Source: Spirosoma oryzicola (GTDB lineage Bacteria > Bacteroidota > Bacteroidia > Cytophagales > Spirosomataceae). From it: a DNA stretch of 64,000 nucleotides. The position numbers and the translations under genes are program-made. The notes under the pieces were generated by a model. That model was not told the DNA's origin. It saw only the letters and a program-made list of their open reading frames with translations, and made no database searches. The stretch covers positions 4,604,501 through 4,668,500 of the forward strand of contig NZ_CP089538.1 in the NCBI RefSeq assembly GCF_021233055.1, read 5' to 3'. Shown piece by piece: positions 1,289 through 50,367 of this stretch (position 1 is the first letter of the stretch; the number at the start of each line of letters is the position of its first letter).

Positions 1289-2605
1289 TTAAGCGATTAT
1301 CAGATTCAATACCATCACACCCGCCAACCCCGTCACCGATACCAGCGTTTCCATGACCGACCACGTTTTCAGCGTATCAGCCATCGACAGTTGAAAATAT
1401 TCGCGGAACAGCCAGAAGCCCGTGTCATTGACATGAGAGAACATCATGCTTCCCGCACCGATGCTCAGTACCATCAGGTTAGGCTCGACTCCCGACGCCT
1501 TCAACAACGGTGCGACAAACCCCGCCGTCGTAATACCAGATACGGTAGAAGAGCCAACACATACCCGAATAATAGCCGCCATTGTCCAGGCCAGTACGTA
1601 CGGGTGCAAGGATGAATGTTGCATCAGATCGGCGATAGCCTGACTCACACCGCCATCGGTCAGCACCTGTTTGAGGGCACCAGCACCGCCAAAAATCAAT
1701 AACAACATAGCCACTTCCTTTACCGAATCGGTCAGTAGAACCGTGGTTTCGGCCATCGATTTTCCCCGTTTCAAGCCAAGCAATCCCACCGCTACCAGCA
1801 CAGAAACCAACATACTGACCGTCGGTTCGCCCAGCGTGAGCAGTACCTGACTGGCCAGTGAGCGCTCAGCTAAAAATGGTCGAACGAATGTGATTACGCC
1901 AATTAGTAGGATCGGCAGCAAAACCGTTAGAAAGCTTACGGCAACCGAAGGCATTTGCTCGTCGGTCAGTTCAGCGGCCATGAACACTTTGTTAGGCAAG
2001 GTTGTGTACCGCTTTAAGGTTGAGCCAAATAACGCGCCTGAAATCAGAATGGCCGGGATAGAAACCAGGATTCCGTAGCCGAGTGTCAGCCCCATATCGG
2101 CGTTGAACTGCTTCAGGATTGCTAATGGAGCCGGGTGCGGGGGCAAATACCCTTGCGTAACCGACAAGGAGGCCAACATGGGCAGACCGATATAAAGCGC
2201 AGGCAACTTATACCGGTAAGCAACGGTAATAACCAAAGGAGCCAATAGCAGGAAGCCAACCGAATAAAACAAGGGCAGCCCAACGATGAAGCCGGTGATC
2301 ATAAAAGCCCAGCGCGCGTGGCGAGTACCAACCAGCGACATCATCGTTACGGCAATCTGCTGAGCGGCTCCACTAGTGGCTACCAACTTTCCTAACATGG
2401 CTCCCAGCGCAATAATGCCAACAATAGAGCCCAGCGTACCGCCTATTCCTTTTTGAATCGATTCGAAGATGGTGGATGGCGACAATCCCAGTGCAAAGCC
2501 GACCCCTAGTGAAACCAGCAGAAAAGCCAGGAAGGTATGCAGACGCGCGTAGGAAATCAGAATAATCAGTACAAAAATACCAAGGGTAGTAATCAGCAAC
2601 GGCAT
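1289..2605 (-). CDS. gntP: GntP-family gluconate:H+ symporter
   Basis: A 438-residue, very hydrophobic polytopic inner-membrane protein with roughly a dozen membrane spans, the normal length for GntP/GntT permeases. The N-terminal region (GIGGTLGSIVGIIALGAMLG) and the C-terminal GSSTVSGITTAGFVAPLL and HVNDTGFWLFREYF stretches match the gluconate:proton symporter family. It probably imports gluconate or a related sugar acid by proton symport. No gluconate kinase or dehydratase is adjacent, so the exact substrate is inferred from family only; an SMP-30/gluconolactonase-like gene is in the window but about 48 kb away. It is transcribed alone on the minus strand, divergent from the ECF sigma gene at 2859. 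Confidence 0.88.
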   Translation of the reverse strand: MPLLITTLGIFVLIILISYARLHTFLAFLLVSLGVGFALGLSPSTIFESIQKGIGGTLGSIVGIIALGAMLGKLVATSGAAQQIAVTMMSLVGTRHARWAFMITGFIVGLPLFYSVGFLLLAPLVITVAYRYKLPALYIGLPMLASLSVTQGYLPPHPAPLAILKQFNADMGLTLGYGILVSIPAILISGALFGSTLKRYTTLPNKVFMAAELTDEQMPSVAVSFLTVLLPILLIGVITFVRPFLAERSLASQVLLTLGEPTVSMLVSVLVAVGLLGLKRGKSMAETTVLLTDSVKEVAMLLLIFGGAGALKQVLTDGGVSQAIADLMQHSSLHPYVLAWTMAAIIRVCVGSSTVSGITTAGFVAPLLKASGVEPNLMVLSIGAGSMMFSHVNDTGFWLFREYFQLSMADTLKTWSVMETLVSVTGLAGVMVLNLIIA

Positions 2606-47251: not shown

Positions 47252-47846
47252 ATTGCCCTTCCCAATTGCTGTTCTTATTCTGAAGCACTGCTGCTTACTG
47301 TCTACTCTTTTTGTTGACCAACGACTACAGTCGATCCTGCTATTTACATATTTACAGATCCAACAACGAAAGAGCGATTGATCAGACGTAAATCTTCACT
47401 GCCAAGCAATCCGTTTAACGACCAGGACCGTAAAATAGACTCATACTCAATTGCTTTACTTTTCTTTAATCATTTTTTAACTTTGAGTTAGTATGCGGCT
47501 TATTCTATTCCTTACTCCCCCCTGACTCTTCTTTAGTCGGACCACCTCACGGCCTCATCCCGAATGCCGCTAACACCTTATTTTAACGGGGCGGCTGTCT
47601 TTATGAACCGGGCTATAAACTCGCTAGCCAGGTACGACCACAAACATAAACGCTTGACTATCAGTTGACGATACGTCTTCTATCCGCTAATTAGCCAAAC
47701 CAGGTGAAGGTTGCCAGGCTAGAGAAAGAATACGTACAGTTTACAACTTAATACAAACTCAACGACGAGAATCGCTTCCTATAAGTCATTCTCAGAGCGG
47801 TTTATTATCGTTGAGCAACCTGAAGAAAAAGCTAAATAGCTTCGTT
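47252..47846. other. Long gene-free region before the beta-helix gene
   Basis: About 595 bases without a credible gene. TAACTTTG at 47478-47485 matches the -7 box on the plus strand; if used, the beta-helix mRNA would have a leader of about 355 bases. A short imperfect hairpin (CTGACT/AGTCGG) lies near 47522-47540, and a run of seven C at 47518-47524. No riboswitch class is recognised. Confidence 0.4.
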
Positions 47847-49313
47847 ATGAAAGTAATTATTTTGATTCGTTTAATTTTTTTTCTGGCTTTAGCTGGTCTG
47901 CTGACGCATTGTAAGCCAGAAGACGCTGTGGTGGACCCCGTTGTTCAACGGCAGGACACCTTGACAATCAACCAGGTACGGTCCTGGAACACGTTACCTC
48001 TGCCTAGCAGCGTTCGCATTACCGATACGGGTATAGAAGGCGTATTTAAGCTGGTCGTTGGCGATAATACCAGCGCCGACGATATGGGCAGTATCCTGGT
48101 AACCGCTAATGGCAGACGTTATAAACGTGATTTTACCGGCCCCGCCAATGCGGCCTGGTTTGGCGTTAACCCTTCGGCGGCTGATATTGGACCGGCGTTG
48201 CAAGCCGCTGTAAATGCGGCTAGTGAAGTCGTTATTCCAGATGGAGCCTACACGCAGGGAACATCCGTTGTTCTCAAAAGCGGGCTGACGATTCGCGGAA
48301 ACGCTGGTAAAGTTACGATTACGCTTCCCAAAACGTACGTGTCGCTTGTTTCGCTGGCGCGGTCCGAAGAGGCTATCACTCCCCTTGAGAACGTAATCAT
48401 CGACGGCTTATCCTGGATGACAACGACTCGGGAAGATGGTATGTTCGGATGCATCTACATCGATGGTCCAACGGTCAATAACCTAACGGTACAAAACTGT
48501 GCTGGTAACGACGTTGCATCTAAAGACAGTACCAACTGGCTGACGGTGAAAATTCAATCCGGTAAAACAGCCAGCAACATTGTGATTAAGAATAACCATG
48601 TGCAGGCACGACGAATGGCCTGTGAGATTTTCAATCACGATAATCACGGTATTTATTCCGGTAAGAACATTATTGTCAGTGGTAACGATTTTCATAACTG
48701 CCATTTCGGTATCTCCTTATCTGGACCGCTGGATGGACTCATGGTCGACAATAATCACCTGACCAACTGTAGTCTGTTCGGCATCGAGATAGCCGGTGCA
48801 GCCCGTAATGTCAAGATTACCAACAACACATTCGAAGGAACGTTTGACAAGTTTCTTACCGGCTCCAACGACGGCAATGGGAATGGTAGTGTAGTGGGCG
48901 GCATGGTTGTTACGGGAAATTCGACGATTGGTTTGTGTACCGGTGGCGTCCAGATCTTTAATGGCGGAACGATGCAATTCACTAAGAATAATTTCAATAT
49001 GACGGGAATGCTGGAACTTGCCCACTCCACAAACGGAGGAACCTACACCGAAAACGTCATTGAAAGTCTAGCCAACAAAGCCATCATCTGTGACAACACA
49101 TCGGACAACACGTTCAGTGGCAACACGATTTCAAACAAAAACTGCCCCGGAAATCACGCTACGTTTATGTCTTATGGCAGCAAGGCAACGAACAATGTGT
49201 TGACGAATAATAAGCTGACAAAAGGCGTCGGTGGCAGTTATTACGATTCAGTTCTGGGTGGTACTACCGTAGCCTCCAAAAATTATGACGAAGCTGGCAA
49301 CCCAATTCCATAA
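47847..49313 (+). CDS. Right-handed parallel beta-helix lipoprotein
   Basis: A 488-residue protein from ATG 47847. This start gives a lipoprotein signal (MKVIILIRLIFFLALAGLLT followed by HC); the frame opens at a TTG 12 codons earlier. From about residue 115 the sequence is a series of beta-helix coils rich in N and G: VVLKSGLTIRGNAGKVTITL, NLTVQNCAGNDV, ITNNTFEGTFDKF, GTYTENVIESLANKAIICDN. The closing coils are typical of periplasmic copper-binding NosD-like and pectate-lyase-like helices. It probably binds or cleaves a polysaccharide at the cell surface, but no catalytic residues are recognised and no carbohydrate genes are adjacent. Confidence 0.85.
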   Translation: MKVIILIRLIFFLALAGLLTHCKPEDAVVDPVVQRQDTLTINQVRSWNTLPLPSSVRITDTGIEGVFKLVVGDNTSADDMGSILVTANGRRYKRDFTGPANAAWFGVNPSAADIGPALQAAVNAASEVVIPDGAYTQGTSVVLKSGLTIRGNAGKVTITLPKTYVSLVSLARSEEAITPLENVIIDGLSWMTTTREDGMFGCIYIDGPTVNNLTVQNCAGNDVASKDSTNWLTVKIQSGKTASNIVIKNNHVQARRMACEIFNHDNHGIYSGKNIIVSGNDFHNCHFGISLSGPLDGLMVDNNHLTNCSLFGIEIAGAARNVKITNNTFEGTFDKFLTGSNDGNGNGSVVGGMVVTGNSTIGLCTGGVQIFNGGTMQFTKNNFNMTGMLELAHSTNGGTYTENVIESLANKAIICDNTSDNTFSGNTISNKNCPGNHATFMSYGSKATNNVLTNNKLTKGVGGSYYDSVLGGTTVASKNYDEAGNPIP

Positions 49314-49479
49314 AACCAGCTTTTTCGCCAGATCGATCAGCATCGGAAAGTCCAGTGGTATAGATTACCTTTTCACACAGGCACACTTATCATACATGTG
49401 TTTTTAGGCACAAGCAACGGTTAAGACTCAGTTGACGTACTGGTAGTTGAATAGGTAATATGAACAAGATAAAGAAAAC

Positions 49480-49508
49480 GCCCGGTCGATTGAATCGGGC
49501 TGTTTTTT
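49480..49508 (+). terminator. Intrinsic terminator
   Basis: A 7-bp stem (GCCCGGT with ATCGGGC, 49480-49486 and 49494-49500; one G-T pair) with a 7-base loop, then a T-run to 49508. It lies 170 bases after the beta-helix gene and may be its terminator, or that of a degenerate third small-RNA unit. Confidence 0.7.
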
Positions 49509-49605
49509 TAATAGGAATTACCAAGCCGTTCGGAACAGATTTACGTATGACTGCTCGTACGTACAAATTGAGTTGGTCGTTTGTCGTTGCCAGGTTAACC
49601 ATCTT

Positions 49606-49640
49606 TTAACCCCTCCGTCCGCACGAAGCCTGTACTTTTG
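49606..49640 (+). promoter_or_regulatory. Promoter of small-RNA cassette 1
   Basis: TTAAC at 49606-49610, 22-base spacer, TACTTTTG at 49633-49640. The layout is identical to cassette 2, down to the preceding TCTT and the TCCGCAC/TTCGCAC-type spacer segment. Confidence 0.65.
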
Positions 49641-49645
49641 TTAAG

Positions 49646-49701
49646 AAGGTTTTTTGGAAAAGAGGATAAAAAACGCCGGTCTTTCTGGGACCGGCGTTTT
49701 T
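49646..49701 (+). ncRNA. Candidate small RNA 1 of a tandem pair
   Basis: About 55 bases between the predicted start (about 6 after the -7 box) and the end of the T-run. It ends in a perfect 9-bp hairpin ACGCCGGTC/GACCGGCGT (49673-49681 with 49689-49697) plus five T. There is no ATG or usable reading frame. Its sequence GTTAAGAA and the terminator resemble the second cassette. No known RNA family was recognised. The start position is an estimate. Confidence 0.5.
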
Positions 49702-49714
49702 ATGTTAACGTCTT

Positions 49715-49749
49715 TTAACATATGGCTTGGGCCGTTCGCACTACCTTTG
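49715..49749 (+). promoter_or_regulatory. Promoter of small-RNA cassette 2
   Basis: TTAAC at 49715-49719, 22-base spacer, TACCTTTG at 49742-49749, beginning 14 bases after the terminator of cassette 1. Confidence 0.65.
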
Positions 49750-49754
49750 CGGCT

Positions 49755-49818
49755 CATAAGAAATATCTCATAGGTTAAGAAAACAATAAATGCCGGTCTG
49801 CTTTGGACCGGCGTTTTT
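49755..49818 (+). ncRNA. Candidate small RNA 2 of a tandem pair
   Basis: About 64 bases from the predicted start to the T-run end, with a terminator hairpin GCCGGTC/GACCGGC (49792-49798 with 49806-49812) and five T. It shares GGTTAAGAA and the AATAAAtGCCGGTCT block with cassette 1 but differs elsewhere. No reading frame. It converges on the 173-residue hypothetical gene, whose 3' end is 28 bases away. The start position is an estimate. Confidence 0.5.
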
Positions 49819-49845: not shown

Positions 49846-50367
49846 TTAAGTGGTGGGGGGAACGGCGACACCTCGTTCAATGTAGCCGTACGTATCAATG
49901 CATAGGCTATCCAAATAACGCAGTAAAGCAACGATATTGACGCGTGCCGGGCTGGCCAGGCCATCAATCCAGCGCTCGGAAGAAACCGCGCCGTCTGCGG
50001 TAATAAGAAGTTTGATAGGTCCTGAAATCAGTTCGATCTGCGCTTCGCCCCGAACCAGGCGTACCTCCTCGCGCTGATCCCAATAAGGAAAACCGGAACG
50101 GAAACACTGTCTGGCCTCGAATTCTGTCAAATCTACCAGTGGCCGCAGAATTAAACGAACACATGGCGGAGGAATCGTTCGGACAAACGGTTCGCCCTGA
50201 AAAGACACACCTGCCGTTGGGGTCATCGCATTTCCTTCGATTCGGTCGCGGACATACCTAAGAATACCGATTTGCCCATGTTTGGCGTGCCCGACTGACT
50301 CAATCAACACCGGCTGGCCAAGATGCTGGATTAACTCGTTCGGGGTCAGTGTTACCTCTGTACTCAT
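49846..50367 (-). CDS. Hypothetical cytoplasmic protein, 173 residues
   Basis: No signal peptide, membrane span or recognised domain. It starts MSTEVTLTPNELIQHLGQPV, with a beta-rich N-terminal half (GQIGILRYVRDRIEG; AGVSFQGEPFVRTIPPPCVR) and a mixed C-terminal half (EVRLVRGEAQIELISGPIKL; ARVNIVALLRYLDSLCIDTY). Codon use is like that of its neighbours. It is a single-gene unit; a 14-base palindrome lies 30 bases upstream of its start. Confidence 0.65.
   Translation of the reverse strand: MSTEVTLTPNELIQHLGQPVLIESVGHAKHGQIGILRYVRDRIEGNAMTPTAGVSFQGEPFVRTIPPPCVRLILRPLVDLTEFEARQCFRSGFPYWDQREEVRLVRGEAQIELISGPIKLLITADGAVSSERWIDGLASPARVNIVALLRYLDSLCIDTYGYIERGVAVPPTT

Follow-up and report, generated by a model that had tools for sequence, protein, structure and literature searches.

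A short stretch of Spirosoma oryzicola DNA, located in the 64,000-nucleotide sequence analysed here (the window), very probably carries three small RNA genes in an array, each independent of the others and acting in trans. We have named them RNA0, RNA1 and RNA2. RNA0 would be driven by an ECF sigma factor, RNA1 and RNA2 would be activated by a regulator of the OmpR/PhoB type, and all three would act by pairing with mRNAs. The reading of the array as small RNA genes is well supported at the sequence level, and the array would add new sequence families to a kind of small RNA gene that is already known. The predicted features, together with a flanking gene that serves as a landmark, are collected in Table 1.

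Table 1. Predicted features of the array and its flanking gene (positions in the window)
Feature	Position	Strand	Remarks
ECF-type promoter of RNA0, GCAACG-N16-CGTA	49414..49439	+	Present in 6/6 array genomes; same motif before an ECF sigma gene
RNA0, predicted small RNA of ~60-64 nt	49446..49509	+	26-nt body at 49449-49474; intrinsic terminator, stem at 49480-49500
RNA1 direct repeat TTAAC-N6-TTAAC (TTAACCATCTTTTAAC, 11-bp period)	49595..49610	+	Putative OmpR/PhoB-type activator site
RNA1 sigma-A -7 box TACTTTTG	49633..49640	+	TAnnTTTG in 6/6 genomes
RNA1, predicted, ~57 nt	49645..49701	+	Terminator hairpin at 49669-49701, five T; body conserved in 6 genomes
RNA2 direct repeat TTAAC-N5-TTAAC (TTAACGTCTTTTAAC, 10-bp period)	49705..49719	+	Putative activator site
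RNA2 sigma-A -7 box TACCTTTG	49742..49749	+	TAnnTTTG in 5/5 genomes
RNA2, predicted, ~65 nt	49754..49818	+	Core ATATCTCATAGGTTAAGAAAAC, then terminator hairpin, five T
Conserved flanking gene, 173 aa (landmark, outside the RNAs)	49846..50367	-	Adjoins the array in six of six genomes

In the model that we propose, stress would release the ECF sigma factor, which would then transcribe RNA0 as well as its own gene. For RNA1 and RNA2, the housekeeping sigma factor would act on TAnnTTTG promoters with a direct repeat near -33, a probable OmpR/PhoB-type activator site answering a nutrient (possibly phosphate) signal. Each RNA would consist of a conserved, mostly single-stranded region of 25-30 nt followed by an intrinsic terminator. 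The conserved region would pair with target mRNAs, most likely near their start codons, and alter translation or stability. From the features described below we infer that RNA0-RNA2 are transcribed, as well as which regulators act on them, how they pair and what they target.

The RNA1 and RNA2 cassettes extend from 49595 to 49701 and from 49705 to 49818, respectively. The initial annotation had described two units, each with TTAAC, exactly 22 bases, a box, and a hairpin with five T, and this layout was confirmed: 22 bases separate the second TTAAC of each repeat (49606-49610 for RNA1, 49715-49719 for RNA2) from the -7 box, and TTAAC-N22-TAnnTTTG matched exactly twice in the window, at the RNA1 and RNA2 promoters. 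The promoter element is really a TTAAC direct repeat, however, and a third unit lying upstream (RNA0, 49414-49509) had been missed. Neither the CGCAC segment nor GTTAAGAA, which the cassettes had been said to share, is conserved in relatives. In the excerpted text of PMC9723704, the -7 box recognised by the housekeeping sigma factor of Flavobacterium psychrophilum is TAnnTTTG, at -12 to -5; with this placement, transcription is predicted to start near 49645 (RNA1) and 49754 (RNA2), which gives the lengths of ~57 and ~65 nt. Both RNAs fold better than shuffled sequences (z of -4.5 for RNA1 and -3.3 for RNA2). A terminator consensus scanner called the RNA0 terminator, whose stem covaries, on the plus strand; the hairpins of RNA1 and RNA2 were called on the minus strand only, probably because the flanking runs of A and T extend the stem by pairing. 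No ORF of at least 60 aa was found on the cassette strand at RNA1 and RNA2; on the opposite strand, a 70-aa ORF (49390-49602) overlaps the RNA0 unit.

The distribution of the array was analysed in 36 Spirosoma genomes, using covariance models for RNA0 and RNA2, and DNA similarity only for RNA1. The array is present in 6/36 genomes (G000, G002, G004, G005, G029 and G033): RNA0 gave strong model matches in all six, RNA1 was found in the same six, and RNA2 in five, with G002 lacking it. The search of related genomes proposed in the initial annotation thus showed RNA0, RNA1 and the downstream gene in 5/5 array-bearing relatives, and RNA2 in 4/5. The six genomes group together as a clade (support 0.84) in the ECF sigma protein tree, which covers 30/36 genomes. 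In a 150-genome sample of the family, searched with stricter filters, matches at E < 1e-10 for RNA0 and RNA1 were restricted to three of the array genomes, the sample evidently not including the remaining three. Weak family-wide model matches were set aside; among 60 loci (4 of them blank at contig edges) those that were read look mostly like terminators. Two loci (L053 and L062) resemble the start of the RNA1 body but lack the RNA1 promoter layout. At four others (L049, L050, L064 and L068, ~1500-1570, reverse strand) an AT-rich conserved stretch around TTTTGGTTAAAAAAGAGGAAGGTTC was observed 5' of a terminator; this stretch occurs in several genomes, one of them from another genus, and could be either a gene end or another small RNA.

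On the 3' side of the array, all six genomes carry the 173-aa gene, for whose product no Pfam or NCBIfam family was found, and then a SMP-30-like gene. In five of the six, the order continues with a phytochrome gene and two more genes, which we take to be response-regulator-like and heme-oxygenase-like. The genes on the left side vary across the array genomes, but G002 has those of the window. A beta-helix protein gene (47811-49313) lies beside the array in the window and was not seen adjoining it in the other five genomes. In Spirosoma terrae (G033), 4.2 kb with three ORFs separate RNA1 from RNA2, so that each cassette behaves as its own gene. Sequence comparison shows the units, with their promoters and terminators, to be conserved and separable. 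Searches of phage and plasmid collections gave no match to the array in either, and a phage or plasmid origin was rejected. As the initial annotation had stated, no known RNA family was recognised: in a covariance search with Rfam 15 only a tRNA reached the gathering threshold in the window, and the array gave 16 matches far below threshold, of which the two with the best E-values (0.0005 and 0.0009) lie on the opposite strand. Known families were accordingly discarded as an explanation of the array.

Conservation is unevenly distributed within the units. Over the six genomes, the mean pairwise identity of RNA0 is 37% in the upstream DNA, 100% in the -35 element, 40% in the spacer, 100% in the -10 element, 37% in the discriminator, 98.7% in the body and 84.5% in the terminator. 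For RNA1 (six genomes) the values are 42% upstream, 90% in the box, 52% in the spacer, 87% in the -7 box, 81% in the body and 82% in the terminator. For RNA2 (five genomes) they are 94.7% in the box, 54% in the spacer, 88% in the -7 box, 50% in the discriminator, 95% in the body, where 28/31 columns are invariant, and 69% in the terminator. Bodies thus range from 81 to 99%, spacers from 40 to 54% and upstream DNA from 37 to 42%. One TTAAC half-site is altered in G029, at both RNA1 and RNA2, and in G033 at its RNA1 copy. In the terminator stems of RNA1, RNA2 and RNA0, 98%, 95% and 100% of the cells are paired, and two, four and three pairs, respectively, have changed on both sides. Of 500 shuffles, 17, 3 and 8 attained the covariation score, and 95, 22 and 65 the count of pairs changed on both sides; drawn from 5-6 related sequences, with five distinct ones per stem, this is modest evidence. 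No start codon and frame common to all genomes is kept in the RNA units. As judged from sequence and folding, each has its own promoter and terminator hairpin, a conserved body and unconserved spacers, and no conserved ORF, as expected for RNA genes that have promoters of their own.

The cassettes had also been called paralogous. This holds for promoter and terminator: the whole RNA1 and RNA2 cassettes align with a score of 88.5, against a maximum of 47 in 1000 dinucleotide shuffles, and the promoters alone score above all but 1 of 1000 shuffles. It does not hold for the bodies, whose alignment is no better than that of shuffled sequences (320/1000 reach the score) and which are not detectably homologous. 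RNA0 as a whole unit scores above all 1000 shuffles against RNA1, via the promoter-distal and terminator parts, and above all but 16 of 1000 against RNA2; the scores of its body against the RNA1 and RNA2 bodies were reached by 248 and 75 of 1000 shuffles. Paralogy of the bodies was therefore rejected. The proposal of new, paralogous small RNA genes is partly supported: two autonomous units are conserved in relatives, while paralogy finds no support in their bodies. The likeness of the units fits both a duplication after which the body was replaced, and convergence, with the same regulator and type of terminator taken into use independently.

The promoter pattern of RNA0 matched 53 times in its own genome, versus 17 times for a reversed control, and 25 of 30 examined matches lie inside ORFs, so that the presence of the motif alone is no proof. 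One match starts 68 bases 5' of the gene for a 202-aa ECF sigma factor, which lies at G000:C1:3332255-3332860. Homologues of this protein at E up to 1e-40 were found in 36/36 genomes of the genus, the sole match in G026 being at the level of a paralogue. Among the orthologues examined, GCAAC[GA]-N16-CGTA precedes the ECF sigma gene in 30/30, with the exact GCAACG in 26. The promoter is thus common to RNA0 (6/6) and the ECF sigma gene (30/30), as motif sharing only, and because of this RNA0 is most likely a noncoding arm of that ECF response. It is natural to infer that the ECF sigma factor is autoregulated, reads GCAACG-N16-CGTA and has RNA0 in its regulon, and the shared motif makes the ECF link of RNA0 a well-supported prediction. 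At one of the sigma loci (L106:1501-3604) the ECF sigma gene is followed by that of a long protein, which has a single hydrophobic segment and a C-terminal part that looks barrel-like by eye. This protein gave no Pfam or NCBIfam match and is possibly a fused anti-sigma/outer-membrane sensor.

Across the genus, an RNA0-type promoter followed by a terminator-like stretch was matched 41 times (some matches overlap) versus 5 in the control. These matches include RNA0 itself, coding-region matches and a second, different short RNA. The latter belongs to another clade of the genus and was found in seven genomes (G001, G008, G014, G021, G022, G032 and, more divergent, G006), around base 1500 of loci L160, L166, L172, L179, L187, L153 and L164. 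Its bodies are alike (in each pair tested, 0-2 of 1000 shuffles reached the score) and show no likeness to RNA0 (577-875 of 1000). Searched by this pattern, the second RNA was seen in 0/6 array genomes. ECF-promoter matches followed by hairpins were also observed around base 1500 of L169 (G014), L170 and L178 (G016 and G031); these could be further short RNAs or the ends of genes.

Direct repeats of one helical turn that replace the -35 element are typical of activators of the OmpR/PhoB family. The arrangement TTAAC-N5/6-TTAAC-N18-25-TAnnTTTG was matched 33 times in the 36 genomes, versus 10 times for the reversed control. Eight matches correspond to RNA1 and RNA2, and three lie before a gene for a PiT-family phosphate transporter (Pfam PHO4 in the one product tested). 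Four belong to a FAD-dependent glycerol-phosphate dehydrogenase-type gene, which was read in G002 and G000, with only the promoter seen in G004 and G005; its product matches Pfam DAO and DAO_C (G002), and the exact repeat with N22 is present in G000 and G002. Two more lie before genes that resemble those of TonB receptors (one product tested, with a Plug domain). The rest are four and three matches before two kinds of gene, presumably OmpH-like and sensor-like, respectively, and nine before other genes. In 20/20 PiT genes examined among the 36 genomes, TTAACAATTTxxTAAyA lies 21 bases before TAnnTTTG, the repeat being degenerate in 17 and exact in 3. The occurrence of PiT and glycerol-phosphate dehydrogenase-type genes behind a similar layout suggests an activator of the PhoB/OmpR type. 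The repeat was absent from the top phosphate-binding-protein loci (16 loci examined, of 30 retrieved), which makes the phosphate link weak, and repeat-bearing promoters also precede genes of no evident phosphate role. We conclude that: i) the activator of RNA1 and RNA2 is probably of the response-regulator type, and ii) its assignment to phosphate, with PhoB as the favoured guess, is tentative.

The core of RNA2 is not confined to the array. A model built from RNA2 and two relatives matched 30/36 genomes at E up to 0.001. Outside the array, 24 of 25 loci, one per genome, carry the core ATAGGTTAGG (24/36 genomes of the genus; L196-L219, e.g. L208:1400-1580). A TAnnTTTG box lies 43-71 bases 5' of the core in 21/24 of these loci, and 20/24 are convergent to the same kind of gene end, that of a gene we take to be rmlA-like (rmlB/rmlA-like genes are presumably those in L008:1-1473). 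In the DNA upstream of this small RNA, conserved motifs like TGCGGACTTTTGCCTG and CGGTGTTTTTGCGCT were observed, which look like regulator sites. G004 carries an extra copy with TAGGTTAAGAAAACGG in common with RNA2. Since its core occurs in a small RNA found throughout the genus, the core is probably older than the array, and it may be a seed that the two RNAs share.

Pairing was analysed with the leaders of 175 genes with mechanically called starts, from 264 kb of the own genome. These leaders are low in G (0.17) and richer in pyrimidine (0.54), and purines predominate in the bodies of RNA0, RNA1 and RNA2. Pairing of the RNA2 body is better with the 175 gene starts than with coding interiors (1/40 shuffles was as strong); no general preference for these gene starts was observed with the RNA0 and RNA1 bodies (31/40 and 38/40 shuffles as strong). 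For RNA0, a site of 21 pairs, including two G-U, with a 3-base bulge (-23.2 kcal/mol) is predicted in the gap before a gene that we take to be pump-like, in an apparent TolC-MFP-RND operon (L316:1282-4600). On the same 175 gene starts, none of 100 shuffled bodies reached this energy (best, -23.0), in a search that scanned ~4% of the genome and tried three RNAs. The site is a lead to a candidate target. In the region of G002 where synteny would place this operon, 240 kb did not contain it.

Base-pairing with mRNAs is the favoured mechanism of the RNAs. It is unlikely that they bind a protein instead, by sequestration of the CsrA-like or 6S-like kind: the AAGG and AGG repeats of RNA1, the AGG in all three bodies, and the lack of a general start-region preference of RNA0 and RNA1 would agree with protein binding, but RNA0 has no conserved stem-loop presenting a motif, and no match to the 6S or CsrB family was obtained. 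Alternatively, RNA1 and RNA2 might be mainly cis elements that insulate transcription, or act as a regulator decoy, between convergent transcription, with the RNAs as by-products. Their upstream genes vary, the conserved gene on their other side is convergent, and they carry regulator-like boxes and hairpins that scan as minus-strand terminators. However, their bodies are 95% (RNA2) and 81% (RNA1) identical though termination does not need them, and in G033 RNA0 and RNA1 occur together away from the conserved gene, so we consider this very unlikely. As a further alternative, the units might be a dwarf-ORF array of very short peptides, such as MNKMK in RNA0, where ATGAACAAGATRAAG is preserved in six of six genomes. 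Beyond the fifth codon of RNA0, however, the sequence varies from lineage to lineage, with insertions of 0-2 bases, and no start codon of RNA1 or RNA2 is shared by every genome. With no start codon and frame kept, coding peptides were rejected as the main explanation and are highly improbable.

To our knowledge, work on regulatory RNAs has been far more extensive in enterobacteria than in Bacteroidota. Like RybB, MicA and MicL of Escherichia coli (sigma-E), RNA0 would be a small RNA from an ECF promoter class that also serves the sigma gene. The same holds for FoxI and FoxJ, the ECF-driven small RNAs of Fusobacterium, a bacterium said in the excerpts of PMC11005410 to lack Hfq and ProQ. RNA0 differs from all of these in its promoter motif and in having a candidate target only, the sequences having been compared via Rfam alone. 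Within the phylum, the excerpts of PMC9723704 describe Rfp11, a putative regulatory RNA of F. psychrophilum. Its ECF-type promoter class (SM6, CGT box) is also that of an ECF/anti-sigma operon; the likeness to RNA0 is one of description, not of sequence, and those excerpts mention no tandem array. RNA1 and RNA2 resemble OmrA and OmrB, which, in the excerpts of PMC4211561, are tandem short small RNA genes of enterobacteria under a response regulator, split by an insertion element in one strain and reduced to a single member in some species. Both are tandem, separable pairs in which one member can be lost, the activator of RNA1 and RNA2 being a predicted one. As far as those excerpts go, OmrA and OmrB are alike at the 5' and at the 3' end, whereas RNA1 and RNA2 have alike terminators and bodies unrelated above shuffle level; the two pairs also differ in phylum and -7 box.

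By title and start of abstract, none of the papers found on Spirosoma small RNAs was on the subject, and none of the matches listed for Cytophagales RNA named Cytophagales, which is not proof of nothing in print. The array is a good candidate for a hitherto undescribed cluster of small regulatory RNAs. It is possible, although we would not count on it, that the array joins two signals, stress through the ECF sigma factor (RNA0) and a nutrient through a PhoB/OmpR-type activator (RNA1 and RNA2), and that the ECF RNA has been replaced between clades. In that case, different stresses would converge on one target set, since RNA2 shares its pairing core, as a common seed, with the genus-wide small RNA. 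With three defined RNAs and predicted inducers, the locus makes ECF-controlled RNA regulation in Bacteroidota directly testable. If true, the swap of an ECF-driven RNA between clades, with the sigma factor and the promoter kept, would be a clear turnover of the noncoding arm of a stress response.
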